From: Coprinopsis marcescibilis
Taxonomy: Eukaryota > Basidiomycota > Agaricomycetes > Agaricales > Psathyrellaceae
DNA: 22,676 nucleotides
Assembly: GCA_004369085.1 (NCBI GenBank)
Contig: ML210396.1
Span: 15,051 to 37,726 of the forward strand
Direction of reading: 5' to 3'
The notes beneath the pieces are model-generated. The model ran no database searches. It was not told the DNA's origin and worked only from the letters and a program-made list of their open reading frames with translations. Positions 1,990-22,676 of the stretch are shown here, one piece after another. A program made the position numbers and the translations under genes. The number at the start of each line of letters is the position of its first letter. The first letter of the stretch is position 1.

Positions 1990-4193
1990 ATGTTCTCATC
2001 TTTCCTGGACTCTACGTCAGTATTGGAGGTGTTTACACTTGTGAAGTTGGCCACCTATGTGTCGCACCTCAAGAATGAGATTCTTATCACTCACCCGTCA
2101 TCTCAAATCGTAACCGCTGCACCGTTGGCCCTTCCACCAAGTGTTACAAAGTTTCTTGCAGCGGCATGCATGATTGAAGAAGTAGATGTTGAGTCTGGAT
2201 GGCTGCTGGTGAAGGATATTGTCTGGCAGGAGAGAGAGGGGATTTTCGGTGAGAAAGAAACAACGGATGCATTCCGTGTGTTTGGCACCAAACATGGCTT
2301 TCGTGCGTTGTTCAACTACATGCTGGGCCTGGTACTGACGGAGAAATAGCGTCTTTTAGAGCGCTATGGCCTCCCAACCACATGTGCACCAATCCCAAAT
2401 GCACTCGCACTGACAAGGGCCATAAACTTCAGACAGCCATTGCACGGCACGGCATTCTGTATACGGTTGGACAAGGACCTGTCCCTGCATACGTTATTCA
2501 TCTTGAGTGCTCTGGTAGGTAAATTGAGGGTTTGAGGACTGATGTTGTAATAATTCTGATGCATGCAGACTGCAAGACAACTTACTACCCCAATTATAAG
2601 GAACGGTGGCACACGCACCTACTATAATATGGCTCAACCGTTCCTTCAGATCACTGATTTGAAATATGCGGAGGTCCCACTGGTGCAGTCTTGGAAGATA
2701 AATACTAACATAGCCTGGGTTTCGAGCTCAAATAATCCATCTACCTACATGGCCTGGTATCCCAACTGTGACGAAACCCTGCCTGGCGAATGGAAGTTCA
2801 AGGCTAGCACCCTGGATGGGGATGATGTCTTCCTTGGATTCATGATATTATCACTTCTGCAGGACTGTCGCAGGCGGAATACTACGTTGGCCGTTCCCCA
2901 TAGTGGCCCGCAGTCGCACCGCTTCAATAATGCCATACATGGTAGGAACGACCGCATCCGGATGTATGGCCAGCCTCTACGGGAGCATGCCTGCACAAAA
3001 TGTGTACGGATATACAAAGATGGAAACGGAGATGGTAAGTCTTCTATCTATTCCTTTGGTGTACGTTTCTGAATACTTTAAAAAAAAAAAAAAAAAAAGA
3101 TCGCGAGGTTTCTGCTGTTGTGATGGATGGCATTATGCTTGGCCATCCAACGTGTGGTGACCCCCGATGTAAACTACCTCTTGCTAGCACAAAGGCACGT
3201 TTCTGTCCTGAGCACCGGTCACTAGAGGAGAAATGCTCGGTTGTTGGGTGCACAGCAACAGTGGGACAGGGTTACCGAACATGCAACGACAAAGAGCACA
3301 GGAAAATTGAAGAGGTACATAACGCACGGTCGTCAGCAGCCTTTCAGTTGAAGGACCGCCTCGAACGTGCACGGGTTGCTCACCCAAAGAGCGGCGATGC
3401 CATTGACACAAACACCTCAGAGCTGATTGGGCAAGATGATCCACTTGAAGAAACATATGCAGTATTTGACAACAAAATCGTTCCATCATCACCCAACCTT
3501 CTTACGCAGGCAGAAGCTGCACACCAGTTGATCCTTCCATTGGTGCTGGCACCTACTACAGCTAGCAGCATTACTGCACCTTTAACACCTAGCAATCCTG
3601 CTCTTCCAAGGAAGAAGATTAGAGCCAACTTTGGACAAAAACAGACACACAATGAGCAGATCCTTGTTACGCCATGTGGAGTTATCATTGCCCAGGACAC
3701 ATTCTACAACACAGAGTCCATTCCATCCGTAGTAGTATGTGCTTAATTTGCTTCTACTAGCCATTCTCACACTGACCTTTGAATCGTGTAGGACATGATC
3801 AAACGAACCTATCTCAACCAATGCAAGCCAAACCATATTGTCTTCGACAACAACTGCAGCATCAAAAAGCATGTACAAGATGACACATGGTTTGAGAATG
3901 TTGGCCTTGCCGTTGACGTCTTCCACTACCGGTGCAAGCAGTCGCTAACGGACATGTTTTGTCAAGCCAACTGTAATCCTGCCGATTTTCCTGAGCTCAA
4001 AGGGGAAGGAGGAAGAGGTTGGTACTTTAACACCTCTATTGCTGAGCAGACAAATGTCTGGTTGGGGGGATTTCATTCTATCTGCAGGGAGATGACTGCT
4101 GAACGGTTTGATTTCTTCTTGGACAAAATGATTCTCATGCGAAACAAACGAGTAGTCAGGAAAATGAAACAGCATAACATTCTTGTCATTTGA
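1990..4193 (+). CDS. CxC5-CxC6 cysteine-cluster protein of the KDZ transposon system, apparent frameshift
   Basis: Proposed exons: 1990-2302, 2350-2514, 2569-3034, 3100-3734 and 3792-4193, about 659 residues. Domains in order: a helical N-terminus; a CxC5 cluster with CTNPKC and then CSDCKTTYYPNY across the second splice; a CxC6 cluster from about 3120 (HPTCGDPRCKLPL, FCPEH, CSVVGC, GYRTC); and a KDZ-like catalytic remnant with HNEQILVTPCGV, VFDNNC, VDVFHYRCK, CNPADFPEL and AEQTNVWLGGF. These domains accompany Kyakuja-Dileera-Zisupton transposons in basidiomycetes. The first intron (2303-2349) has a CTGAC branch site and removes an otherwise in-frame TAG. The frame of CSDCKTTYYPNY does not continue into RTYYNMAQPF, so one extra base (or a two-base loss) lies at about 2597-2620. 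I prefer Met 1990 over Met 1831, because 1831 overlaps the inferred hAT end. Met 1900 is another possible start. Confidence 0.75.
3080..3098 (+). repeat. A19 homopolymer forming a 3' splice site
   Basis: Nineteen A residues followed directly by G (3099) form the only suitable acceptor for the intron 3035-3099 of the CxC5-CxC6 gene. The donor is GTAAGT and the join is in frame (GAT then CGC GAG). The usual pyrimidine-rich stretch is absent. Confidence 0.7.
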
Positions 4194-4459: not shown

Positions 4460-6616
4460 TTAATAGTTGTAGTAGTCGTCGTCGCCACTGATATATTCTT
4501 CGCAGGAGGCATCGCTGGCATCGGAGTCATCGTAGTACTCAAAAGGTGGGGTGGGGTCGTGGCCATGGGCTTCAAGTTCCTGGCGGGTCGAAGAGAAAAG
4601 TGCACCATTGAGCTTGTCTTGCTGTTTAGCTTCACGTCGGTGGTGTTGGCGTAGCTTGCGTAACTCTGCGTCCGGCCGAGGTACATTCTTCCTGAACGAC
4701 GAGTAAAGAGCCCAGTTGGCATGGTTCGCTCCCTCATACAGTGCACGATCCTCATCATTGGCATTCAACCAGTGACGGCGGGTCTCAGAGTAGGTACTTG
4801 GGACCCAACGGCACCCAGTCGTGTTTACAAACAGGGTACTGCGTTCGATTGGAGGCGACTGGTCCATAGCCTCGATGAGATCTGCAATTTCGATGCAGAA
4901 AAAATGGGTAGGCCATGATCGGCCACTTGTTCTATTTGAGGCAATAGAAAGAGGTGCAGAGGAACAACGCTTGGGAGGGTATGCAGAGGAGAAAGTGGAT
5001 GAGGATGAGGCAACCGAGAAGGCGCGCAGAGGACTGCCATGGCGTTTGGCCTTTTTCTTGGGATGGGAGTATCCGGGAGTGGAGGCAACACATGTGAGGT
5101 CGATAACCTCTGTAGGCGACAGTGAGTGTTTGCGCTTGAGTGTAGCTGCATTGGTGGCAACTATCTCAACTTCCGACTCTGAGTCTGAAGATGTTGACAA
5201 CTGTGCCTCAAGAAAGCCGTGATAGCCATGGTGGGGTGTTGGGGTGATGGGAGTCCTAGGGGCTTTCAACAGCTGCAACAGGGAATTATTGGTCTTGCGA
5301 AGCCAAGGAGTATTCGACGGTTGAAAATGTTGGTTGGCTGCATTGATGTAAGATTTGTTGGCCTTGGATTTGACAGTGCTGCGCTCAAGTTGAAGGTTGT
5401 TGTAGAGGTGTGGGGTGTCCGGTGCCTTGATATGAACATAGCCATCAAAGCCTTTGCAGGCAGTGACACCATAGGCACGGAGATAGATATCGTGGTTGTC
5501 GTTTGCAAGAGTGACAGTGAAAGGGATGGTGGTAAGGCGCGTCCAGGTTTTGTGGGTGTAGTTGTAAACGGAGACCATAGCTCCAGGTGCCGATGTGAGA
5601 TCAACGGCAGAGAGCTCCGTTTCTGTGATCTTGAAGTTGGGGTAGGTGTGCTGTGATTGGAATGAAGCTTCAATGGGATCCGATTCATTCTGAAATGATG
5701 TCAGATAAGCATATGTCACAATCGTCACACCAGAAAGACATACCGATGCCCAAGCAACAATTGTAATGGTATTTTTGGCATCAGCGATAGCATCCCGTCG
5801 AGCTGCTTCTGCATTGCGCCGCTTCTCCGCAATCTCCTGTTCAATGGCTTTCTGCTCTGTAAAAACGGGTTGAAGCTGAGAGGAGAAACGGTAATTGATG
5901 GTCGGATCAGTCGATTTGTCCTTGTTGGGAGTAGTCTGGGTGGAAAGTAGTAGTGAATCGGCAACGGGTGACAGCCCCTGTGAGGTGCGTGCCACGGCAG
6001 GGACTGGGGGTGTGGCCTGACTCGGAGATGGCCCAGCAGCAACAGCCAAGATGGCTCCTGTATGGGACGGTAGGCTGTGGTCCTTTACTCCATGGCAGCC
6101 CCCCATATGCATGACACAGTGCTGGCGACAGGCCTTGTTGTGGCACTTGATGTTGACCCGGGAACTGGCGCAGCCACCCTTCCACGTACATTTCAGCTTC
6201 TCAGAAGTGCCAGCAGCAGTGGGCTGTGATGACGGTATTGGAAATGGGGGAGGGAGGGAGGCAAGTGAGGCCGGGAGTTGAGGTTGGGATGCTGGCTGTG
6301 TAGCCGATGGCGACCGTGAGTGCAACCGGGGCCAGTACTGCTTATGTTCATGGCGGCGGTCAGCGGTTCCATCACACTGAAGCCACAGTTTATTAGTACC
6401 AGTAAAATTATGTATTCGCAAAACACATACCTTGTAATATGTCTTTCTCAAGTTGCCATTCAGATTCGTGGTACAAATGAGGGGAAGCAGCATGAGGTAG
6501 CAGGGGCTCCCATCACTCAGGATGGCAGTGCAGAGACGAGCCTCAGGTGGAGGAGTCATGCTCTGATAAATGCCCCAGGGGTTGTGGAAAGCTAGCTTCT
6601 CTGTAAGCTGGTGCAT
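4460..6616 (-). CDS. Uncharacterised Cys-cluster protein, convergent with the CxC5-CxC6 gene
   Basis: The unspliced frame is 718 codons, but two 54-nt stretches look like introns. The first, 6377-6430, has donor GTATGT and acceptor TTCAG. The second, 5690-5743, has GTATGT, branch CTGAC and TTTCAG. Both lengths are multiples of three without stops, so the frame stays open either way; the spliced protein would be 682 residues. Spliced residues about 125-162 hold a Cys/His cluster (CTWKGGC, KCHNKACRQHC, GGCHGVKDHS), probably zinc-binding. An acidic-Ser stretch, an EVIDLT sequence like a SUMO-interacting motif, a basic HPKKKAKR (likely nuclear signal) and a C-terminal block with PSTYSETRRHW follow. 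I recall similar Cys-cluster proteins in Agaricomycetes but know no function. The gene ends 266 bp from the CxC5-CxC6 stop. The C-terminus is acidic and Tyr-rich. Confidence 0.75.
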   Translation of the reverse strand: MHQLTEKLAFHNPWGIYQSMTPPPEARLCTAILSDGSPCYLMLLPLICTTNLNGNLRKTYYKVCVLRIHNFTGTNKLWLQCDGTADRRHEHKQYWPRLHSRSPSATQPASQPQLPASLASLPPPFPIPSSQPTAAGTSEKLKCTWKGGCASSRVNIKCHNKACRQHCVMHMGGCHGVKDHSLPSHTGAILAVAAGPSPSQATPPVPAVARTSQGLSPVADSLLLSTQTTPNKDKSTDPTINYRFSSQLQPVFTEQKAIEQEIAEKRRNAEAARRDAIADAKNTITIVAWASVCLSGVTIVTYAYLTSFQNESDPIEASFQSQHTYPNFKITETELSAVDLTSAPGAMVSVYNYTHKTWTRLTTIPFTVTLANDNHDIYLRAYGVTACKGFDGYVHIKAPDTPHLYNNLQLERSTVKSKANKSYINAANQHFQPSNTPWLRKTNNSLLQLLKAPRTPITPTPHHGYHGFLEAQLSTSSDSESEVEIVATNAATLKRKHSLSPTEVIDLTCVASTPGYSHPKKKAKRHGSPLRAFSVASSSSTFSSAYPPKRCSSAPLSIASNRTSGRSWPTHFFCIEIADLIEAMDQSPPIERSTLFVNTTGCRWVPSTYSETRRHWLNANDEDRALYEGANHANWALYSSFRKNVPRPDAELRKLRQHHRREAKQQDKLNGALFSSTRQELEAHGHDPTPPFEYYDDSDASDASCEEYISGDDDYYNY

Positions 6617-7544: not shown

Positions 7545-9465
7545 ATGTCTGAAAAAACTCCAGCCAAATCTCATGAGGACGATGAGCGTGGTACTACTGG
7601 AACGCCCGCAAGTTCACCGTTAATGGCGAAGAAACGGACGAAAGTTCTCGTTCCCGCCGTCGTGCTCTCTCTGCTTACTCTCTACACCAACACAAACGGC
7701 AACCGCTACGATGGACTTGCGTTCGAGTACAACGTCACCAAACCTTTACCGCCAAGTAGCTACACGCTGTGCTCGGCGGAAGGAGGTCCGAGGGGCGTGT
7801 ACACTGTCGATGCGAAGGATGGCGTCGTGAAGTGCGTTTTGGTAGTTGATGAGTGGGTCAAGGGTACTGGATCTTTGGGTGAGGCTCCAGTGCACTTGGG
7901 AATGCGGCCGAATGCTGATGTGCATGGTGTGTTGGCGTAGGTGAAGTGCAGGATCTGTGGAAGGGTATTGCAACCTCTATATTGGAATCGACGGACTCAT
8001 GATTATCAAAGGTACGTGTCCAGACCTTCTTTACGGGACCGCTGGCTTACGTGCGTTGTAGAAAGCGTGGAGGCCGTGGCGCATTGCGTGCAGTTCAACC
8101 CGGATATCATCGCTGATGAGAGTGGGATTGTGGAGGGGTGGCGATGGGACCATGAGGCTTTGAGGGCGGCAAGAGGTCTACTGCTGTGCGTATCACTTTA
8201 TCCAATATCTACCCCTTCCCCAGCCCCTCGATCTTATTCGTACTTGCACTAACCAACTCTCACAATAGGCTGCCTACAGCCCGATCTGTCCTCGCACACG
8301 GTCCTCGCAACCTCCAACGCATTACTGTCAAGCCAGGACGAACACGCAACTTGGTTCTCGCCGACTATTTTGGATGCAAATGGGCCCTACCCGGCTGAAG
8401 TGGACGGGGTGCTATCGTATGGAATGCGCAGGGGGGATACAGGTATGTGGGTCTTTGTTCTTCATTGCACGTTCAGCTTCCGCATATCACAATCTACCTC
8501 CTGCGTTTCCTCTACACTCCCAATTCTCTGCCTGTTCATTCCTATCCGCCTGCTCCTACTCAATCTACCTCGATAGTCGAGGATAGCTAACCAACCTCTC
8601 CAGGCGTATTCATCATCACGGCGATGAAGCTGATCGGACCGCTCACGATCACCCCCCTGGTGCAGCACAAGCGGTTCACGAACACCGTACGCGACACGCT
8701 CAGTTCCGGCTTGACCAGTTTGCTCGGCGCTGGTTCAAACCCCATCTCCTTGGGTTTCCTTCAATAGGTGCGTTTGGTTTTGGTTTTGGTGGTTGGGTCT
8801 CGGGTTGGGTTGGAATCGAGGATACCTGCCATCCAGTTTCCCTCGCTAGGTCTTGCGGAGGGCCCGCGCCGGTTCGCGGCTCTTCGTCTGGCGTTTTGAT
8901 ACCTCTTTGTTCTGTTCTATTCTGTTCTATTCTGTTCTCCGCTTTCCGCATCGCTAACGCCCCGCCCATTTACAGACAATCCAAACGAGAAGGCGGCATC
9001 CCACTATAATCCCACTAACGATATACAGCAGGTCCCTTTTTACCGTTTCCGCTATCGACGCTCGTTTCTTTAGCTCTCCTCCCACCCTCTCTTCCATCCG
9101 ACGACGCGTACTGGGGCTCCCCAAGCCAAAAGGCTGATTATATGGACATCAAGACGCGGCTCGGCATGAAGGCTTTCGCGGATGGGGCTTTGAGCACTAT
9201 GGATGCTGCTGGTGAGTTTTTCCTTTTTCTCATTCTTGTTGTTATCATGTTCTTTGCGGTGGTTCTGTCGTGTGTGTGGGGTTGTTGGTGGGGTCTTGTG
9301 CGATGGGTCTGTCGTTGTCGCCGCCGTTGTTTGGTTGGAGGGCTGGAGGGTTGGAGTTTCTGGACCTTTGTACTCTCGCCCTGCAATGCGCCTTACTAAC
9401 TAACCCACGTCTTTATGCACAGTTTTACGAACTCTGGCGGACGACGCGAGTACGTCGTATGGCTC
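7545..9465 (+). pseudogene. YtcJ-type amidohydrolase, copy A, decayed
   Basis: The first exon keeps a start (MSEKTPAKSHEDDERG), one hydrophobic anchor (KVLVPAVVLSLLTLY) and the family N-terminal strand segment YTLCSAEGG...VYTVDAKDGVV. Later pieces match in order: NPDIIADESGIVEGWRWDH (near 8100), DANGPYPAEVDG (near 8375), a relic of the FTNT-RD-LS-GLTS segment (near 8670), FADGALST (near 9180) and about 40 nt of the LYEPYADDPSTSG exon (from 9423). Members of this amidohydrolase_3 family are metal-dependent hydrolases. Damage: the His-x-His segment is missing around 7960-8000, a T is lost in the run near 8160, the GGVIVRDAQGN segment is altered to VLSYGMRRGD, and the YGMSFFN region is scrambled. 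Copies B and C are the same family; A and B are closer to each other. Confidence 0.8.
8908..8938 (+). repeat. TTCTG/TTCTA pentanucleotide repeat in a copy A intron
   Basis: About six imperfect 5-nt units lie just before the 3' splice site of the intron following the GLTS exon. The equivalent repeat is at 14851-14881 in copy B, so it predates that duplication. Copy C has instead a TTTCCG-type repeat near 22190-22235. Confidence 0.7.
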
Positions 9466-11987: not shown

Positions 11988-12560
11988 TGCTGAGTTGCGC
12001 AGCAAGATCGACAAGCTGGTGCATGACCTATCGGCGTCCGAGATACCAAGAGATGCTGCTTTGGAAGTTCGACAACGCGAACTTGTTGAGTGCGTTTCCT
12101 TATACCCTGAATTTATTAGGTGCCTTCTAACAAACCGTTCAGAGCGTTACGCGCCAAGGCGAGATTGCTTGAAGCGCTGTTGGGAGACATTCTATTTTAC
12201 CATATTTCTTCCATCACAAAGATGGTGTGTATTAGACCTTAGATGTGATATTCCTTTGGTGCTAATAAGTTATTCCCCATGCTTGCTCCATCTCATAGGC
12301 AGTAAGTGTTATACCTTGCTATTAAATTCCCTTGCTTATTCCATCCCATAGATGGTTTGTATTTTACCTTAATGCTGTCTTTCCTCAGTGCTGATCCCAT
12401 ACATCTCCATCTCATAGGGGGTATGTATTACATGCATTTTATGGCTATTTTTGCTTTGTGCTGATTCCAACGATCATAGAACTTCAAGCAGCACTTGGCC
12501 AGAATGAAGACAGCTAGAATTACTGATTGGGTTGAAGGCCCCGGCACAAGCTCTGATTAA
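11988..12560 (+). pseudogene. Truncated paralogue of the helical-bundle/codon-array gene
   Basis: The first stretch (to about 12094) matches exon 2 of the gene at 17174 (LRSKIDKLVHDLS against LRSKIEELVDHLS). An intron of about 48 nt follows. The next exon (12143-12224) reads ALRAKARLLEALLGD, matching LRAKAEELEELLDD, and then runs into array-like sequence ending ...ITKM. Three more one-codon exons follow: GCA (12299), ATG (12352) and GGG (12418). The last exon, 12480-12560, is phase 0 and ends at a TAA (NFKQHLARMKTARITDW, then 9 more residues). That end resembles the last exon of the intact gene (PTASITGW). Exon 1 homology is missing and an internal deletion has removed exons 4-6 and most of the array. 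It could still make a short protein, but its 5' end is lost. Confidence 0.7.
12222..12479 (+). repeat. Short array of codon-separated introns, 4 triplets
   Basis: Degenerate version of the large array at 18729-20335. Triplets ATG (12222-12224), GCA (12299-12301), ATG (12352-12354) and GGG (12418-12420) are each followed by a donor (GTGTGT, GTAAGT, GTTTGT, GTATGT). The last three are preceded by a CATAG acceptor; the first is preceded by CAAAG, which is open upstream and is therefore the end of a longer exon. Intron lengths are 74, 50, 63 and 59 nt. Branch-like CTAAT or CTGAT occurs in three of the four. Confidence 0.75.
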
Positions 12561-13203: not shown

Positions 13204-13636
13204 CCAAGGCCTGGACAGGCTCCAGCCATATTTCACGAGGACGATGCGCACGGTACCACTGGAAAGCCCGCAGGTTCACCGTTAGTAGCGAAGAAATGGA
13301 CGAAAGCTCTCGTCCTCGCCGTCGTGCTCTCTCCGCTTATTCTCTACACCAACATCAGCCTACGAAGGACCTGCGAGGGGCGTGTACAGTGTTTATGCGA
13401 CGTATGGCGTCGTGGAGTGCGTGTTTGTTGTTGATGAGTGGGGCAAGGGTACTGGCTCTTTGGGTGAGGTTCCAGCGTGCTTGTGAATGCCGACGAATGC
13501 TGATATTGTGTGTTGGTGCAGGTGAGGTGAAGGAGGTCCGGAAGGGTCTTGCAGTTTCGGACTCGCTGCCAATTGTACGCGTGGAAGGCGCAGTTGTCTT
13601 ACCCGGCTTGCGGATTCTCCTTGGCGTGTACTGGAG

Positions 13637-14227
13637 TATCAGTGAGCAGATCCCGCTCGAGGGTCTCAGGATTATCGAAGGTATGTTGCCTGTCTTTTCA
13701 TTACGCGACCACGACTTACGTGCGTTGTAGAACGCGTGAAAGGTTGTACATTACGTGCAGTCGGACCCGGATATCGATATCCTTTCTGATGAGGGTGGAG
13801 GGTGGGGATGGGACCGTGAGGCTTTTGAGGGCGACAAGATGCCTGCTGCTGTGCGTATCACTTTATCCAATATCTACCCCTTCCCCTCGATCTTATTCGT
13901 ACTTGCACTAACCAACTCTCACAATAATATCAGTGAGCAGATCCCGCTCGAGGGTCTCAGGACTATCAAAGGTATGTCGCCTGTCTTTTCAATACGCCAC
14001 CACGACTTATCTGCGTTGTAGAAAGTGCGAAAGGTTGTACATTAGGTGCAGTGGGACCCGGATATCGATATCCTTGCTGATGCGGGGTGGGATTGTGGAG
14101 GGGTGAGGATGGGACCGTGAGGCTTTTGAGGGCGACAAGATGCCTACTGCTGTGCGTATCACTTCATCCAATATCTACCCCTTCCCCTCGATCTTATTCG
14201 TACTTGCACTAACCAACTCTCACAATA
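13637..14227 (+). repeat. Tandem duplication of one exon and its introns inside copy B
   Basis: 13637-13927 (291 nt) is directly repeated at 13928-14227 (300 nt). Each copy begins TATCAGTGAGCAGATCCC, covers the IPLEGLR exon, the next intron, the GWGWDRE exon and the following intron, and ends CTCACAATA. The junction fuses the intron end to the exon start. The second copy has a TGA inside the EG-GWD segment, while the first has lost the ATTGTG of the GGIVEG segment. Confidence 0.85.
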
Positions 14228-15084
14228 GGCTGCCTACAGCCCGATCTGGCCTCGCACACGGTCCTTGCCAACCTCCAACACGCAACTTGGGTCTCGCAGG
14301 CCATTTTGGATGCGAATGGACCCTACCCGGCTGAGGTGGACGGAGTCCTATCGTGTGGGATGCGCAAGGGGGTGATACAGGTATGTGGCCATTTGTTAAT
14401 TCGTTGCAACGTTCTGCTTCTGGATACCACGATCCACCTCCTGCGCTTCCTCTACACACTCCCAATTCTCTGCCTGTTCATTCCTATCCGCCCGCTCCTA
14501 CTCAATCTACCTCGATAGTCGAAGATAGCTAACCACCCTCTCCAGGCCTACTACTCATCGACGGCGATGACGCTGATCAAACCACCCACGACCACCCCCA
14601 GGTGCAGCGCAAGCGGTTCACGAACACCGTACGCGACGCGCTCAGTTTTGGCTTGACCAGTTTGAACGACGCGGGGTTCAGCCCTATCTCCTTGGATTTC
14701 TTCACTTAGGTGCGTTTTGGTTTCGGTTTTAGTGGTTGTGTTTGGGGTTGGGGATCGAGGATACCTCCCCTCCGGTTTCCTTCGCTTCGTCTTGCGGAGG
14801 GCCCACGCCGGCTTGCGGTTCTTCGTCTGGCGTTTCGACACCTCTCTCTGTGTTCTGTTCTGTTCTATTCTGTTCTGTTCTCCGCTTTCCGCAACCCTAA
14901 CGCCCCGCCCCCTTCCAGACAACCCAACCGAGAAGGTGGCCCCATTAAGGATTACAGCATGTCCTGTTTCAACATTTCCGCCATTGACGCTCGTTCCCCT
15001 CTCGCTTCCCCCTTGTCGTCCGACCACCCGTACTCCCTTTGTCCTTCCTTCTTCGTCTCTGTCCCTGTAATGTAACTAAACGCA

Positions 15085-15902: not shown

Positions 15903-17173
15903 GTGCGTTTCTCTTATGGATTTTCTTATAATCTTGGTTTTGATTTTACTTATGGTGTACTGGCGCGATATCTGGTTCTGGTTCTCGTTTTAGTTTTTTG
16001 TTGTGACATGTGTTTTGGTGGTTTGGTGTGGTGGGAGAGCGGACTGGCCTCTGGCGCGATGTATATACCCCACAAGGGCTCATGTTCGCATCGGGTCAAT
16101 CGTTGTTCTTCGTTCTTCGTTCGTTGCCCTTGCGATTTCTTTGGCTATTTTACACCTCGTGGTCTGGTATCGTACCCCATCCCCGGTTCCTGCTGGTCGG
16201 GCCGGGGAATGTGGTGGTGCGATCGTGCGATGAGGAGGGGGCATGTGCGTGCTATGGACTCTCTGCGTCCTGGGAGCCTAACACGGGATCTGCTGTGCGC
16301 TATGGTGGGCAGGGGCGCGATGTGCGGCGGTGGAAACGGTGGGAAGGTATGTATGTTCGGCTGGAGGGGCACCCATACTGATTATTCATATCTGACGACA
16401 TCCGCGCCTCGGTACAAGAGGTCTGCGGGTCCCAACACCGGCGATTTGGGGTAGTTGTTGGCGGATATGGTTGAGAGGGGCATAGGCCGTCCATCGCCGT
16501 GCTCGTTTGGGAACGGTCACCCAGTGACGTGGATGGTCAACGCGAGAGTGAACTCAGGCGGGCTACTCTCGACCATGAGCAGGGATGCAGCTGTGGTGAG
16601 TGCATCTTGCCTACCCGTATTCGCTGGGTGCCGAAGATGGCTAACCCAAACTCGCAGATGCTCATTGTGAGCCCTGAGAGAAACAGCCCAGCAACCACGA
16701 CGATCGCTTCACTCACGACTTTGAAGAGGGCTGAAAATCAAACTCCCAGTTCTTCGGGATACTTCACTCTCTGGGAGGTCGAGGCAGGTGCCAGAAAAGC
16801 AGGCGACAAACATGCTCTTGCCCCTGCATGGCCGCAACTGTATGTCAGCGAATCCTGTGTTAATTATTGCACTATATTGTCCAGTTTTCCGGCCCTCACA
16901 ATTTATTTATCTTCTTCACAAGTTCAAAATGCGGGTTTTAAACGTGTTGATGCGCTCAAGATGGGCCAATCTCCACTGTATCTAATGCTGTTGGCAAAAT
17001 TGCACCAAACGTTTCGGTTGCAGGCACGTATCGAAAACACATTGAGTACTATTTTTATCCTGATGCCGCACGCTGTGCACGAGGCACATTCCTGTTTTAG
17101 TCACTGACGAAGCTGTTGGACGTCTGCGAAACACACACTCTCTTCGAACCACGACCTTTGTATTCAGCCATCC
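15903..17173. other. No gene recognised; one anonymous open frame
   Basis: Downstream of the NVHAIGD exon of copy B I find no further amidohydrolase motifs, so the rest of that copy is deleted or unrecognisable. Overlapping GT-rich open frames at 15864-16454 look like low-complexity sequence. An uninterrupted frame of 202 codons at 16499-17107 has no domain I recognise. An intron-like segment (donor GTGAGT at about 16596, branch CTAAC, acceptor CGCAG at about 16658) cuts it, which argues against it as a single exon. Confidence 0.4.
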
Positions 17174-20100
17174 ATGCAGACACCGCCGCAGACTCCAAAG
17201 CCCATTCTCAAGCGACTCTTCTCTCGATTCAATACGACTTTCCGCAGGAAGAAAGAACGTCCTGCAATCAGTACTTTGATTTCGGAATCGACACATGTAA
17301 ACACCCAACTTGCTGGTCCTCGAGCGATTGAGAGCGGAAGTGGATCGAAGGGCGTCTCCTTTGGACGAAGAGTGCTGCAAACAGCGACCGTCGTTGCTGA
17401 CATAGGTGCATCAGTCGCTGAGGCGGTACCTGGAGGGACGATTGCCAAAGGGGCGTTGGAAGCGTTTTGCAAGGTGCTCAAAGTCGTTGAGGTAAGAGGC
17501 ATTGCTGCGAAACTTCCAAAACCTTCCGACGTCCTGACGACATTCGTGTAGCTCAATCTCCAGAACAAGGAAGATGTGGATGACCTGCGCAGCAAAATCG
17601 AAGAATTGGTGGATCACCTATCCGAGTCCACGATTCCAGTGGGAGATGTTGCGTTTGAAGCTCGACAACGTCGGCTTGTTAGGTGTGTTTCGATATTCCC
17701 CAAATGATCACTTATATACCTTTCTGTACGCTGCGCAGGAAACTACGCGCAAAGGCAGAAGAACTTGAAGAGTTGTTGGATGACCCTTGCGCGAAAATCA
17801 GATCCCAAGCGATCGCTCAAGCGATTACCGCCTGCTTCCGCGATGTCGAAGCCTTCAAGATGGATTTCCTGGTAGGTTTTCGTCGAGTCCCGCTAGCACT
17901 CGTTTGAGAAATGAACCAGCTCATGGTCGCTCAACACCAAATGCGAAGAAATGATTTTCTGGTGGCGGAAATGGCTAAGCAGACCGCGGCGTTGGAGGTC
18001 TTTGTTGAGCTGCACCAGTCGGGACCATCTACGCGGTTCCTGGCAACTGTTAAGGTCATGGATCCTCTGGGGCGCCCGCACATGGTTCCAAGGGAGTTTG
18101 TGAACGCCTTCAAGGTATGTGACATCCTTGACGAGGCTTGTCGTAGGTCTTAATGCCTGTACTCACTCATCAATAGAATCTCGGCCAATATATCCTCGAT
18201 GAATGGTCCGATAATCCCTCTCTTCAGGGGATACTAGCTCCCTATATTGCGGAGGGTAGGTATGACCTGACTGTCAACAGTGGTGAGACTATCACAGAGA
18301 TCGCAACTGGCGATGTACCATATGTTGCTGAACCAAACGAGACCATTGTGATGAGTGTTGTAAAGATTAGCAGCAGAGTGCTTGGGAAGGAGTGCATTCA
18401 ATGCGGTAAATCTGTCTTGCTAGGCCGGCATATTTGGTAAGACCCGCTCAACATGATGGATCCTCCATCTAGTACTTTGTTGCTTGGCTCATAGCAGACA
18501 ATAGCCTCAGTGGGCATCAAGCTCAGGACCTTGGGATGAATGAACTATCCATTGCATCATTGGACATACCAAACGAGGACCACACAGTGGAAGCAATACT
18601 AGCCAACATGGTAGTAAAATATTGGGTATGAATTCCTTTGGTTTGTTATGTCCAGTTATAACTTGGTGCTGATCAATGATGGAAACTGTTTCATGTGGCT
18701 GATTCACAACATTTGATCCCCCTCATAGTCGGTGCGTATGACCTTTATGCTATCTTCCTGCCTTGCTGATCCCTATGTTTGTTTTACCTTATAGGAGGTA
18801 TGTATTTGACCTTGATGCTATACATATTCCTTCCTTACTGATCCTCCATTTGTGTTCCACCTCATAGGGGGTGTGTATTTCAGCTTGATGCCATATATAT
18901 TCCTTGCTGATTCTCTATTTGTGTTCCATGTCATAGCCAGTGTGTATTTGATCTTGAGGCTATCTTCCTGCCTTGCTGATTCCCCATTTGTGTTCTACCT
19001 CATAGATGGTGTGTATTTGACCTTGATGCTACATTCCTTCCTTGCTAATTCCCCATGGTTGTTCCTACTTATAGGTGGTGCGTATTTGAGCTTAATGCTA
19101 TAGTCCTGCCTTGCTGATTTCCCATGGTTGTTCCACCTGGTAGGATGTGTGTGTTTGAACTTGATGCCATGTTCCTTCCTTGCTAATTCCCCATGCTTGT
19201 TCTACCTCATAGTTTGTGTGTATTTGATCTTAATGCCATATTCCTTTCTTGCTGATTTTCTATGCTTGTTCCATCTCATAGCTGGTGCATATTTGATCTT
19301 GATGCTATCTTCCTGCCTTGCTGATTTCCCATGCTTGTTCCAACTCTTAGCGGGTGTGTATTTGACCTTGATGCTATATTTCCTGCCTATCTAATGCCCC
19401 ATATTTGTTCCACCTCATAGGTGGTGTGTATTTGACCTTGATGCCATATTCCTTTCTTGCTGATTTCCCATGCTTCTTCCACCTCATAGGCAGTGTGTAT
19501 TTTAACCTTGATATTATCTTGCCTTGCTGATTCCATATGGTTGTTCCACCTCATAGAATGTGCGTATTTGACCTTGATGCCATATTTATTTCTTGCTGAT
19601 TCCCCATGCTTCTTCCACCTCATAGCAGGTGCATATTTGGTCTTGATGTTATATTTCCTGCTTAGCTGATTCCCTATGTTTGTTCCATCTTGTAGATTGT
19701 GCGTATTTGACCTTGATGTCTTCCTTCCTTGCTGATTCCCCATTTGTGTTCCAAACATCCACCTTGATAGCCAGTATGTATCTGATCTTGATGCTATATT
19801 CTCTACCTTGCTAATTCCCCATATTTGTTCCACCTTATAGAAGGTTATATTTGACCTCAATGCTGTATTCTTCTTTGCTGATTTCCCATTTGTATTTCAC
19901 CTCATAGGAGGTGCACATTTGACCTTGATGCTATACCCCTTCCCTGCTGATTTTACATGGTTGTTCTTCCTCATAGACAGTGCGTATTTGACCTTAATGC
20001 TATATTCCTTCCTTGCTAATCCCCTATCTACCTTATAGTTTGTGGGTATTTGATCTTGATAGCATAGTTCTTCCTTGCTGATTTCCCATATTTTTTCTAC

Positions 20101-20449
20101 CTCATAGAAGGTGTGTATTTGACCTTGAAGCCACATTTCTTTCTTGCTGATTCCCCATGGTTGTTCCACTTTATAGGAGGTGTGTATTTGACCTTGATGC
20201 TATATTTCTTTCTTGCTGATTCGCCTTGTTTTTTCCACCATATAGCTGGTGTGTATTTGACTTTGATGCTATATTCCTTCCTTTGCTGAATTTGGCACAT
20301 TTATTGCTCATGATTATTTTAATTGGCAATTCTAGAGCATGTTTGTGGGCTATGTGAATGAGTTGGACCCCACAGCCTCAATTACTGGTTGGGACCTGTC
20401 TTGGGATGATAGTTCTGACTTGTTTGACCTGCTTAGACTCCAACAATAA
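17174..20449 (+). CDS. Helical-bundle / ubiquitin-like protein with a one-codon-per-exon array
   Basis: Exons: 17174-17491, 17552-17682, 17739-17871, 17920-18114, 18177-18405, 18498-18625, 23 exons of 3 nt each (18729-20248), and 20336-20449. The total is 1317 nt, 438 residues plus TAA, with the frame kept across every join. Residues 1-30 are basic. Residues about 50-225 form a helical region (VADIGASVAEAVPGGTIAKGAL, NKEDVDDLRSKIEEL, KLRAKAEELEELLDD) like the MLKL-type N-terminal bundle of Agaricomycete NLR-like proteins. Residues about 233-325 resemble the fungal ubiquitin-like domain (LATVKVMDPLGR, AEGRYDLTV, ETIVMSVV). A CIQC pair follows. Residues 379-401 come from the one-codon exons; the last exon adds an acidic tail (LSWDDSSDLFDLL). 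A role in self/non-self recognition or cell death is inference from the domains. Without the 18406-18497 intron the protein would stop at TAA 18438 after 346 residues. Confidence 0.7.
18626..20335 (+). repeat. Array of 24 introns separated by 23 single-codon exons (69-nt unit)
   Basis: Each internal unit is GTGTGTATTTGACC, a TTGATGCTATATTCC-like stretch, CTTGCTGAT, a pyrimidine-rich stretch, CATAG, then 3 variable bases. Triplets and starts, first half: TCG 18729, GAG 18795, GGG 18868, CCA 18937, ATG 19006, GTG 19075, GAT 19144, TTT 19213, CTG 19282, CGG 19351, GTG 19421, GCA 19490. Second half: AAT 19557, CAG 19626, ATT 19696, CCA 19771, AAG 19841, GAG 19908, ACA 19977, TTT 20039, AAG 20108, GAG 20177, CTG 20246. 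The 22 internal introns are 59-72 nt, most often 66. All have GT, a CTGAT (17) or CTAAT (5) branch site, and TAG. The outer introns, 18626-18728 and 20249-20335, are hybrids: the first shares only its 3' end with the unit and the last only its 5' part. The repeat is certain; that each triplet is an exon is inferred. Confidence 0.9.
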
Positions 20450-21063
20450 CTAACATATGTCCAAATCCACCAGTATGTCAATTTAATTTTGCTCTATCAC
20501 TGATGTTTGTGGGATGGTTGACATGCAACATAGTATGGCTTGGATTGGGGTGGAAAGAGACAGTGCAGTTTCAAGCACATTGGAGTTGAGCAAGTCAAAA
20601 GCAAGTGCCAAGTTTATAGCAAACTCAGAAATGTTGGATTGGATTCAGGATTGGAAACGGATTGCCTGCTGCAGATATTCGGAGAAAAATATTTGTTACA
20701 CAAAATATGCTACGTCATTTTGATGTCATTCATGCTTTTTATGCGCACTTGTTCGTCGTTCGACATTTGCAAGCGCTATCTAATCTGGAGCGCAGCCTGA
20801 CCAGTGACCGGTGACATGATACCACTTTTGGTATTTGCCAATGACCATCCAAAGACCATGGTTGTACCAGAGTCATTTCACTAACTGGTGATAGTTGGTC
20901 ATGTTCGAACCGGACATCGAGTGGGTTTCGGTGATCAGATTCGGGCGTTCCATTCGCTCTCACTTTCACTGTCACTTTCTTCCTGCTCGTTCACCGTGAT
21001 CCACTCTCTGCAGGTTCGACGATAGACTCTGGACCGACCGACGCCACGAAACTAGAACGACCC
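20450..21063 (+). repeat. Spacer and 5' flank of amidohydrolase copy C
   Basis: Counterpart of 12565-13203, with the same landmark segments in the same order, ending in CTAGAACGACCC immediately before the copy C start codon. The open frame at 20514-20723 is not conserved in the other copy, so I treat the stretch as the terminator-to-promoter spacer between the array gene and the amidohydrolase. Confidence 0.75.
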
Positions 21064-22676
21064 ATGGCTGAAAAGACTCCAGCCAAATCTCACGAGGACG
21101 ATGAACGTGGTATCACTGGAAATCCTGCGGCAGGCTCACAGCTAGTAGCGAAGAAACGGACGAAAGCTCTCGTCCTCGCCGTCATGCTCTCGCTGCTTAC
21201 CCTCTACACCAACACCAGCACTGACCGCTACGAAGGCCTTGCGTTCGAGTACAACATCACCAACCCTCTACCCCAAGGCAGCTACGTGCTGTGCTCGGCG
21301 GAAGGAGGGACGAGTGGCGCATTACGTGCAGTCCAACCCGGATATCCTCGCTGATGAAGGTGGGATTGTGGAAGGGTGGGGATGGGACCATGTGGCTTTT
21401 GAGGGCGGCAAGATGCCTACTGCTGTGCGTATCTCATTATGCAATGTCTATTCCCCCCTACTACTCTTATTCGTGCTGGCATTAGCTAACTATCGCATTG
21501 TTCCCCCCACAGTCAGATCTCTCCTCGTACCCAGTCTTCGCGAACCGCCAAATCATACTGTCGAGCAAGGACGGACACGCAACTTGGGTCTCGCAGGCTA
21601 CGTTGGATGCGAATGGGCCTTACCCGGCTGACGTCGACGGGGGTGTTATCGTTCGGGATGCGCAGGGAAATCTTACAGGTGTGTTATTGGTTCTATTTTC
21701 TGCGTTACGTCCTTGTGTCTGCGATATGTTCTACGTTCTACCATCTACGCGCCCTATCCCCTCAATTCTCGGCCTCGCTCTTATCTCCCAGTCACTCACT
21801 AATAATACATTCACTGACACACATTTAAAACTCTGCAGGCGTTCATCGACACGGCGATGACGCTGATCAGGTCACCCGTTATCACCCCCCAGATGCAGCA
21901 CAGGCGGTTCACGAACACCATACGCGACGCGCTCAGCTTCGGGTTGACGAGTTTGCACGATGCGGGGTTTATATTTCGTTGGATTTCTTCACTAGGTGCG
22001 TTCCGGCTTTGCTTTCGTGGTTGAGGCTGGCTTGCGTTGGATTTGCGATGAGCTTTTGGGTCGAGGGTTGGTCGAGGATAGTACCTCTCAGCTTCGTTCG
22101 CTACGTCTTGCGGAGGTCTAGGGTTCACGGTACCTCGCCTGGCATTCCGATATCCCTCTCCTTTGCACTTCACTCTGCGATTTCCGTTTCCTGATTTCCC
22201 CATTTCCGTTTCCTGATTTCCGCTTTCCGTTTTCTGCCATCCACATCTCCAATATCCCTCTCCCCTCTTAGACAATCCAAACGCCACGCCGGCCTCCCAC
22301 TACGGATCTATGGCATGTCCTTCTTCAACGTCTCCGCCATCGACGTCCACTCCTTCTCCTCCCCTCCCTCCCCCTCCTCGTCGTCCAACGAAGCCTACTG
22401 GGGCTCCACACGCCGGAAGGTCGACGATATGGACGGCGAGACGCGTCTGAGCTTGCGCAGCGTCAAGATTTTCGCGGATGGGGCGTTGAGGACTATGGGT
22501 GCTGCTGTGAGTAGTTGTGGTATTCACCTGTCTAACTGACAAACTGACGAACCCGTTCCCTCCCCTTTATGGACAGTTGTACGAACCGTACGCGGATGAC
22601 CCGAGTACGTCGGGGAGCATGCGTCTTTCGGTGGAGGTCCTTAATGCGATCGTGCCACACTTTTTGGAGGACGGTT
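21064..22676 (+). pseudogene. YtcJ-type amidohydrolase, copy C, best preserved, runs off the window
   Basis: Starts MAEKTPAKSHEDDERG with a hydrophobic anchor (ALVLAVMLSLLTLY), probably a membrane-anchored or secretory enzyme. After CSAEGG a deletion of about 300 nt relative to copy A joins, out of frame, to VAHYVQSNPDILADE...GWGWDH, removing the His-x-His active-site segment. Following exons: 21513-21678 (IILSSKDGHATWVSQ, DANGPYPADVDGG, VRDAQGNLTG), 21839-21995 (FGLTSLHDAGF), 22272-22506 (LRIYGMSFFN, SVKIFADGALRT) and 22577 onward (LYEPYADDPSTSG). The fourth exon has lost 2 nt at its start (GTTC against GTATTC in copy A) and 4 nt before TTGGATTTCTTCAC compared with copy B. Its exon sequence is otherwise closest to the family, and it lacks the changes shared by A and B. 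Continuation to the NVHAIGD exon is expected beyond the window. Confidence 0.8.

Follow-up and report, generated by a model that had tools for sequence, protein, structure and literature searches.

Candidate serial arrays of single-codon exons in the mushroom Coprinopsis marcescibilis

The DNA analysed here, called the window, comprises 22,676 nucleotides (nt) of Coprinopsis marcescibilis (assembly GCA_004369085.1, contig ML210396.1, positions 15,051 to 37,726, forward strand). It is the end of a contig designated C251, and the genome searched comprises 36.3 Mb in 448 contigs. We consider it likely that a block of the window (18626-20335) forms a series of single-codon exons within a protein-coding gene, in which units of one intron and one codon would multiply while selection keeps them spliced. 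The structure is real and very unusual, and its splicing probably proceeds codon by codon. The main argument rests on column identities, a chain test, comparisons of the introns of a paralogous array (C105) and of an unrelated one (C374), and the statistics of junctions and stop codons.

A run of predicted three-nucleotide exons

The block contains 23 consecutive seams of the form TAG-NNN-GT. These define 24 introns that each begin with GT, end with TAG and are spaced by exactly 3 nt, a series reported in a first-pass annotation of this DNA and reproduced by our parse. The same annotation described the introns as nearly identical and 66 nt long, but they turned out to be only alike: the 22 internal introns measure 59-72 nt, the first 103 nt and the last 87 nt, and their mean column identity is 0.785. 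Unit lengths range from 62 to 75 nt. The triplets are, in order, TCG GAG GGG CCA ATG GTG GAT TTT CTG CGG GTG GCA AAT CAG ATT CCA AAG GAG ACA TTT AAG GAG CTG, and their phase-0 reading between two coding exons is SEGPMVDFLRVANQIPKETFKEL. A branch-like CTRAY motif lies 10-50 nt before the acceptor in every one of the first 23 introns, those tested. Each of the 23 seams thus has the AG/exon/GT arrangement, with flanking donor, acceptor and branch site, of a micro-exon.

AG-NNN-GT occurs at 27 places in the block. The four places beyond the 23 seams coincide in part with seams whose triplets are CCA, GCA, CCA and ACA. There, a CAG lying four bases farther downstream could act as the acceptor instead, and the exon would still measure 3 nt. 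An automatic chain that chooses the later CAG at those seams reads the peptide as SEGCMVDFLRVCNQIYKECFKEL. All array exons are symmetrical, and removing any subset leaves the frame intact. The predicted tryptic peptide YWSEGPMVDFLR spans ten predicted splice junctions, and its P becomes C with the alternative CAG acceptor; VANQIPK and ELSMFVGYVNELDPTASITGWDLSWDDSSDLFDLLR are the other tryptic peptides predicted for this array.

The uniform 3-nt chain lies far beyond chance. Chains were defined as YAG-NNN-GT seams spaced 45-95 nt apart, and each array was compared with 1000 dinucleotide shuffles. The longest chain was 23 in the window block and 50 in C374; the automatic rule gave 18 in C105, where a hand parse that accepts one spacing of 118 gives 19. 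The maximum in shuffles was 4 for the window, 4 for C374 and 3 for C105. Neither 106,774 bases of other genome stretches, both strands, nor the rest of the window held a chain longer than 3.

Variation and splice-site retention

In three arrays the first two triplet positions vary more than every intron column. In the window, identity at triplet positions 1 and 2 is 0.255 and 0.273, and the lowest of the 66 intron columns stands at 0.372 (22 units). The corresponding values are 0.323 and 0.249 against a minimum of 0.475 among 68 intron columns in C374 (38 units). In C272 (11 units), another paralogous array, the two positions have 0.255 and 0.273, and the lowest of 66 intron columns has 0.291. 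Position 3 is more conserved, with G predominating in the window (14 of 23) and A in C374 (25 of 49); G might be expected in the window at a position beside the donor. When introns were matched to their nearest relatives, the window pairs were 0.856 identical and their triplets shared 12 of 66 bases. The same comparison gave 0.912 and 59 of 117 bases in C374, 0.878 and 11 of 33 in C272, 0.929 and 13 of 24 in C163, and 0.70 and 22 of 54 in C105.

The C105 array is decayed. Its introns have diverged to 0.58 identity (18 units), while AG and GT are intact at every parsed junction. At the donor, G at +5 and T at +6 stand at 0.8, and most neighbouring positions at 0.3-0.5. If inner positions match the consensus at 0.70, the survival of 19 or more among 20 junctions has P 2.8e-11; the lost 20th junction is deduced from a 115-nt intron, and the units were located by their AG/GT motifs, so losses could show only as long introns. 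Single-base shifts in intron length also occur with no change in the 3-nt exon size, as seen between C105 and a remnant array in the window.

In our parse with TAG acceptors, stop codons are absent from all 118 triplets, whereas shuffling columns within arrays predicts 3.6 (P 0.012; the first GAG of C374 was left out). One additional phase is open in the window and one in C105, and none in C272 or C374. The triplets are probably spliced into the message, given the splice-site retention in C105, the unlike introns of C374 described below, and the intron-length shifts with constant 3-nt exons. The first-pass suggestion of one-codon, phase-0 exons gains support from this evidence, from the few or absent stops and from paralogous arrays at the same exon end.

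A second, unrelated array

C374 carries about 50 consecutive 3-nt exons (C374:8442-11830; 50 YAG-NNN-GT seams) over 3.4 kb, in a locus unrelated to that of the window. A single 68-nt repeat, in copies, accounts for about forty of its introns, and the unit is mostly 71 nt. The last ten introns are mutually unlike (mean identity 0.54 versus 0.49 when shuffled), and the exons between them are still 3 nt long. In translation the triplets give EAERRELERQADAPTLERARLERAEELRIRRFEFRENRELFWFTV(V or H)LVKL, with one junction readable in two ways, and phase 0 is the only open one across the 49 translated triplets. The make-up of the peptide, judged by eye, suggests a charged helix. A protein search with the C374 query returned, among 85 candidates, only P0005, the faulty public model of the same locus.

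The host gene and its copies

The predicted host protein has 446 amino acids, of which 23 come from the array and the others from seven larger exons (Table 1). As noted in the first pass, the upstream exon ends in TAT TGG and the downstream exon stays open for 37 codons to TAA. Both are borne out in the gene model, in which the acceptor before exon 6 (AG at 18503-18504) was picked to hold the frame, and the codon boundary at 18625 depends on that choice. The model places the array peptide at residues 387-409 rather than 379-401 as first numbered. The last exon translates to SMFVGYVNELDPTASITGWDLSWDDSSDLFDLLRLQQ, followed by TAA.

Table 1. Predicted features of the host gene, its array and a remnant array, in window coordinates
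Feature	Position	Strand	Basis	Details
Coding exon 1	17174..17491	+	Gene model; aligns with public proteins P0001-P0004	Begins with ATG
Coding exon 2	17552..17682	+	Gene model; protein alignment	
Coding exon 3	17739..17871	+	Gene model; protein alignment	
Coding exon 4	17920..18114	+	Gene model; Pfam E 3.3e-6, residues 236-321	Start of ubiquitin-like domain PF22893
Coding exon 5	18177..18436	+	Gene model; copy comparison	Remainder of ubiquitin-like domain
Coding exon 6	18505..18625	+	Gene model; copy comparison	Ends VVKYW
Codon-per-exon array	18626..20335	+	Seam parse, column identity, chain test	24 introns and 23 single-codon exons
23 exons of 3 nt	18729..20248	+		Starts 18729 18795 18868 18937 19006 19075 19144 19213 19282 19351 19421 19490 19557 19626 19696 19771 19841 19908 19977 20039 20108 20177 20246; peptide SEGPMVDFLRVANQIPKETFKEL
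Last coding exon	20336..20449	+	Gene model	37 codons and TAA at 20447-20449; begins SMFVGYVNELDPTASITGW
Remnant of second array of same family	12222..12479	+	Triplets each identical to those of C105	Last four triplets ATG GCA ATG GGG
Terminal exon of remnant copy	12480..12560	+	Copy comparison	NFKQHLARMKTARITDWVEGPGTSSD, then stop

The predicted protein matches PF22893, the fungal ubiquitin-like domain ULD_2, with 27.7 bits against a Pfam cut-off of 24.5. Among the public proteins, P0003 lies above the cut-off, and P0001 and P0002 below it. Two protein searches with the host gene (8000 candidates scored) returned the same four C. marcescibilis proteins both times and none from other species.

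Five copies were found with an exon that ends in VVKYW or, in C105, VVKYL, and in each of the five an array follows that exon end; four of these copies lie on contigs other than C251. Because exon 5 has a ratio of nonsynonymous to synonymous substitution rates (dN/dS) of 0.25-0.57, with dS 0.18-0.61, in ten pairs of five copies, the family is under coding constraint. The C105 array has 19 triplets (KPDAEITPESTATLQMAMG), C272 has 12 (DFMRDFKHWRLR), C163 has nine clean ones (EWTEAEETT) and C367 has six up to the contig end (NNRNEE). The segment C367:1-7110 duplicates the last 7110 bases of C251 (100% identity), and C367 extends the locus beyond them; the segment was excluded as a separate array. 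Arrays of differing sequence sit on several contigs, and an assembly artefact is unlikely.

The window also holds a remnant of a second array. Its four triplets are identical to those of C105 in every case, and the corresponding introns are 0.915 to 1.0 identical, three of the four differing by one base in length. Terminal exons are alike over a short phase-0 stretch (by eye or protein alignment), which reads DPTASITGW in the window, PTASIVEVQDSDEDSD in C163, TARITDWVEGPDTSSD in C105 and DPTAILTDW in P0001.

Amidohydrolase-type genes (PF07969, matches to P0002) alternate with the array-gene copies in the window, at about 7545-9300, 13355-15000 and 21064-22676. Such genes also lie beside the copies on C163, C272 and C105, as a co-duplicated cluster. 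Elsewhere in the window, positions 2563-3746 encode cysteine clusters of the CxC5-like (below the Pfam cut-off) and CxC6 (84 bits) types, which are companions of KDZ transposases. An open frame of 718 amino acids on the minus strand (4460-6616) has no Pfam match at E 0.01.

Genome scans and public gene models

Because only the best candidates were scored in the DNA searches with introns, their counts are lower bounds. The window intron family gave at least 61 matches, which among the matches listed fall on C251, C367, C272 and C163 only, and the 68-nt C374 repeat gave at least 39, all on C374 among the matches listed. A genome-wide mobile intron was rejected, as no matches outside the arrays were among those listed. 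A gapped seam pattern restricted to TAG acceptors, the search that led to C374, matched 67 places versus 30 in a reversed control. Of these 67, 57 lie inside the arrays described (37 of them in C251 or the overlapping copy C367) and 10 are scattered. A short seam pattern with up to two mismatches gave 105 matches versus 25 in the reversed control. The places with one mismatch outside arrays among the matches listed, on C6, C383, C77 and C44, showed no blastn likeness to the window at E 1e-8 and no chain of 4.

At two array loci the public gene models seem to be incorrect. P0002 fuses two genes across its array, and P0005 reads introns as protein.

Evidence weighing against the array

Several observations weigh against serial single-codon splicing or against its origin by multiplication of units. 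The public gene models lack the array codons: P0002 runs from KYW straight into the following gene, P0005 treats intron DNA as coding, and P0001 has, judged from the protein alone, a short tail without such a peptide. That tail found no place in the genome searched. Simple tandem copying would lead one to expect neighbouring units to be more alike than distant ones; window neighbours are not clearly so (rho -0.10, permutation p 0.11), while C374 gave rho -0.15 with p 0.008. No triplet link across reciprocal best introns was found in any of the ten pairs of arrays (p 0.29-1.0). The tests on triplets assume independence of units, which does not hold. The stop count depends on the TAG acceptor, since an automatic chain with the later CAG at some seams gives two TAA in C105. 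In this array, moreover, the variability of triplet positions 1, 2 and 3 is matched by 3, 2 and 5 of the 61 intron columns, respectively; we attribute the weak contrast to the decay of the C105 introns as well. The CTRAY motif is less than universal in the other arrays (14 of 19 in C105, 42 of 49 in C374, 10 of 12 in C272, 8 of 9 in C163 and 4 of 6 in C367).

Some copies also depart from the pattern. Near its end, the C163 array has lost one acceptor, and two junctions there are odd and hold the frame only as exons of 2+1 nt or as exons of 6 and 3 nt. At about 43350-43130 on the minus strand of C163, one junction can be read as a 2-nt or 6-nt exon and another as a 1-nt or 3-nt exon. The C272 copy appears broken, with two TGA in its first exon and a tail that is out of phase in this reading. 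Finally, the likeness of the tails is weak, at about nine residues, because a genome search with the last exon of the window (E up to 1) matched only its own two copies.

Discussion

One rival is that 18626-20335 is one long intron holding a minisatellite derived from an old intron, with the whole block removed and the triplets meaningless. The units are indeed tandem repeats, the frame is also kept when the whole block is skipped, and P0002, the public model of the C163 paralog, skips its array. However, a meaningless repeat would not retain AG and GT in the decaying C105 array, and neither the 3-nt spacing between unlike C374 introns nor the concentration of variability at the triplets is explained, so that we regard a single long intron as unlikely. 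Copies of an introner-like mobile intron could instead have inserted between the codons of an existing coding sequence, the triplets never having been part of the repeat. The near absence of coupling between window triplets and intron likeness is consistent with such insertion, but independent insertions would not land exactly 3 nt apart and in one phase every time. Same-triplet neighbours exist, and the matches listed for both intron families lie only inside arrays, which makes this a quite improbable origin.

Short fungal introns are normally removed singly, and skipping one codon would require an intron of about 135 nt. This counts against a generator of peptide variants, proposed in the first pass, in which single codons are skipped in combinations. 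Such skipping is compatible with the serial array that we favour, and it draws support from the symmetry of the exons, any subset of which keeps the frame, from the unusual diversity of the triplets, and from schistosome micro-exon genes (MEGs), which, in the accessible part of that report, illustrate how small symmetrical exons can give rise to variant proteins (PMC4350168). We consider it conceivable but doubtful. Tandem introns that host small nucleolar RNAs (snoRNAs) are described in the available part of another paper (PMC11608373), and the introns might by analogy be the product, as hosts of tandem small RNAs, with meaningless short exons. We rejected this as very improbable: window 16000-21000 has zero Rfam matches at E up to 1, and the C105 introns retain little besides splice signals. 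A coding repeat on the minus strand, where open reading frames of 157 and 90 amino acids lie within the array, is scarcely credible and was likewise rejected, since units of 62 to 75 nt repeatedly shift that frame while the 3-nt spacers are constant, and 71 nt, the usual unit length in C374, is no multiple of 3.

For the serial array of single-codon exons, each short intron would be removed by intron definition, one after another. We infer this stepwise order because sites 3 nt apart cannot be bound simultaneously; removal of one intron would rebuild the context of the next donor, and each step would add one codon. The array may have originated as an in-frame coding minisatellite whose multiplying unit is an intron plus a codon. 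Gain or loss of a unit would keep the frame and alter the protein by one residue, so arrays could grow easily. After multiplication, selection would retain the splice sites and the 3-nt exons while the codons diverge. Codon and adjacent intron appear to have been duplicated together, because neighbours with the same triplet occur (ACA ACA in C163, AAT AAT in C367) and because triplet identity in C374 rises with the identity of the preceding intron. The triplets are far more divergent than the introns, so that either selection diversified the codons after duplication, or the intron copies were evened out while the codons held. Hypermutation of triplets is not favoured, as the triplets shared by C105 and the window remnant are all identical while their introns are 0.915 to 1.0 identical.

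We speculate, tentatively, that the arrays may represent a new gene architecture. It would be a self-expanding coding repeat whose unit is an intron plus a codon, lengthening a protein residue by residue in frame. A single mushroom would have evolved it at no fewer than two unrelated loci. In C374 it would have produced a charged stretch of about 40 residues that resembles a helix, and in a duplicating family with a ubiquitin-like domain a tail of high diversity, maybe with exon skipping to vary the peptides.

If the triplets are spliced in, the known limits of serial exon size are stretched, and the spliceosome joins dozens of codons singly, in order and in frame. Gene predictors can then miss such segments, as in P0002 and P0005. 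The array would serve as a natural test case for the order in which splice sites separated by 3 nt are used, and would provide a way for intron number and protein length to increase together.

Comparison with known systems

Serial single-codon exons were not found in the literature searched, which covers few subscription papers. A search on micro-exons in mushrooms was weak, with none of the 15 papers listed using the word micro-exon, and a term search of a comparative paper on five coprinoid genomes, including C. marcescibilis, found the words intron and exon absent from its main text (PMC10182949). The comparisons that follow draw on the accessible parts of the cited papers. Ultra-small exons are known singly, in agreement with the first-pass annotation, which names isolated microexons of 3 nt or less in other eukaryotes but no serial codon array. 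Examples are a 1-nt exon of Arabidopsis APC11 (PMC4674806), a 1-nt exon of Fusarium CYP621A (PMC12940212) and a 3-nt exon of Drosophila homothorax (PMC7392893). According to the Fusarium paper, micro-exons occur in several P450 genes in a white-rot fungus as well. Like the exons predicted for the array, these single exons are spliceosomal, 1-3 nt long and easily missed by annotation. They occur one per ordinary gene, with transcript evidence for APC11 and CYP621A, whereas here 23 to about 50 are predicted from sequence to stand in series.

Introners and introner-like elements also form families of similar introns (PMC9860276, PMC4457414). Unlike them, the array introns have no isolated copies elsewhere in the genome among the matches listed, and their spread seems to be local. 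The hosts of SNORD115/116 likewise contain dozens of related tandem introns (PMC11608373), but the array differs in having no RNA family match, introns of 66 nt and coding exons flanking it. Recursive splicing ratchet points, in the accounts available, share with the splicing proposed for the array an acceptor and a donor that nearly adjoin and a donor rebuilt at each step. A ratchet point is a 0-nt exon, with AG directly followed by GT, whereas at all 23 window seams 3 nt lie between AG and GT and would be retained, and the introns are short.

The schistosome MEGs (PMC4350168) resemble the array in their serial, very small, symmetrical exons, in belonging to a fast-changing gene family and in keeping the frame on any removal. 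MEGs carry most of their coding region in small symmetrical exons; only 23 of the 446 residues here come from the array. In contrast to MEGs, every array exon is one codon, the introns are largely copies of one repeat, and the splicing pattern is a prediction from sequence.

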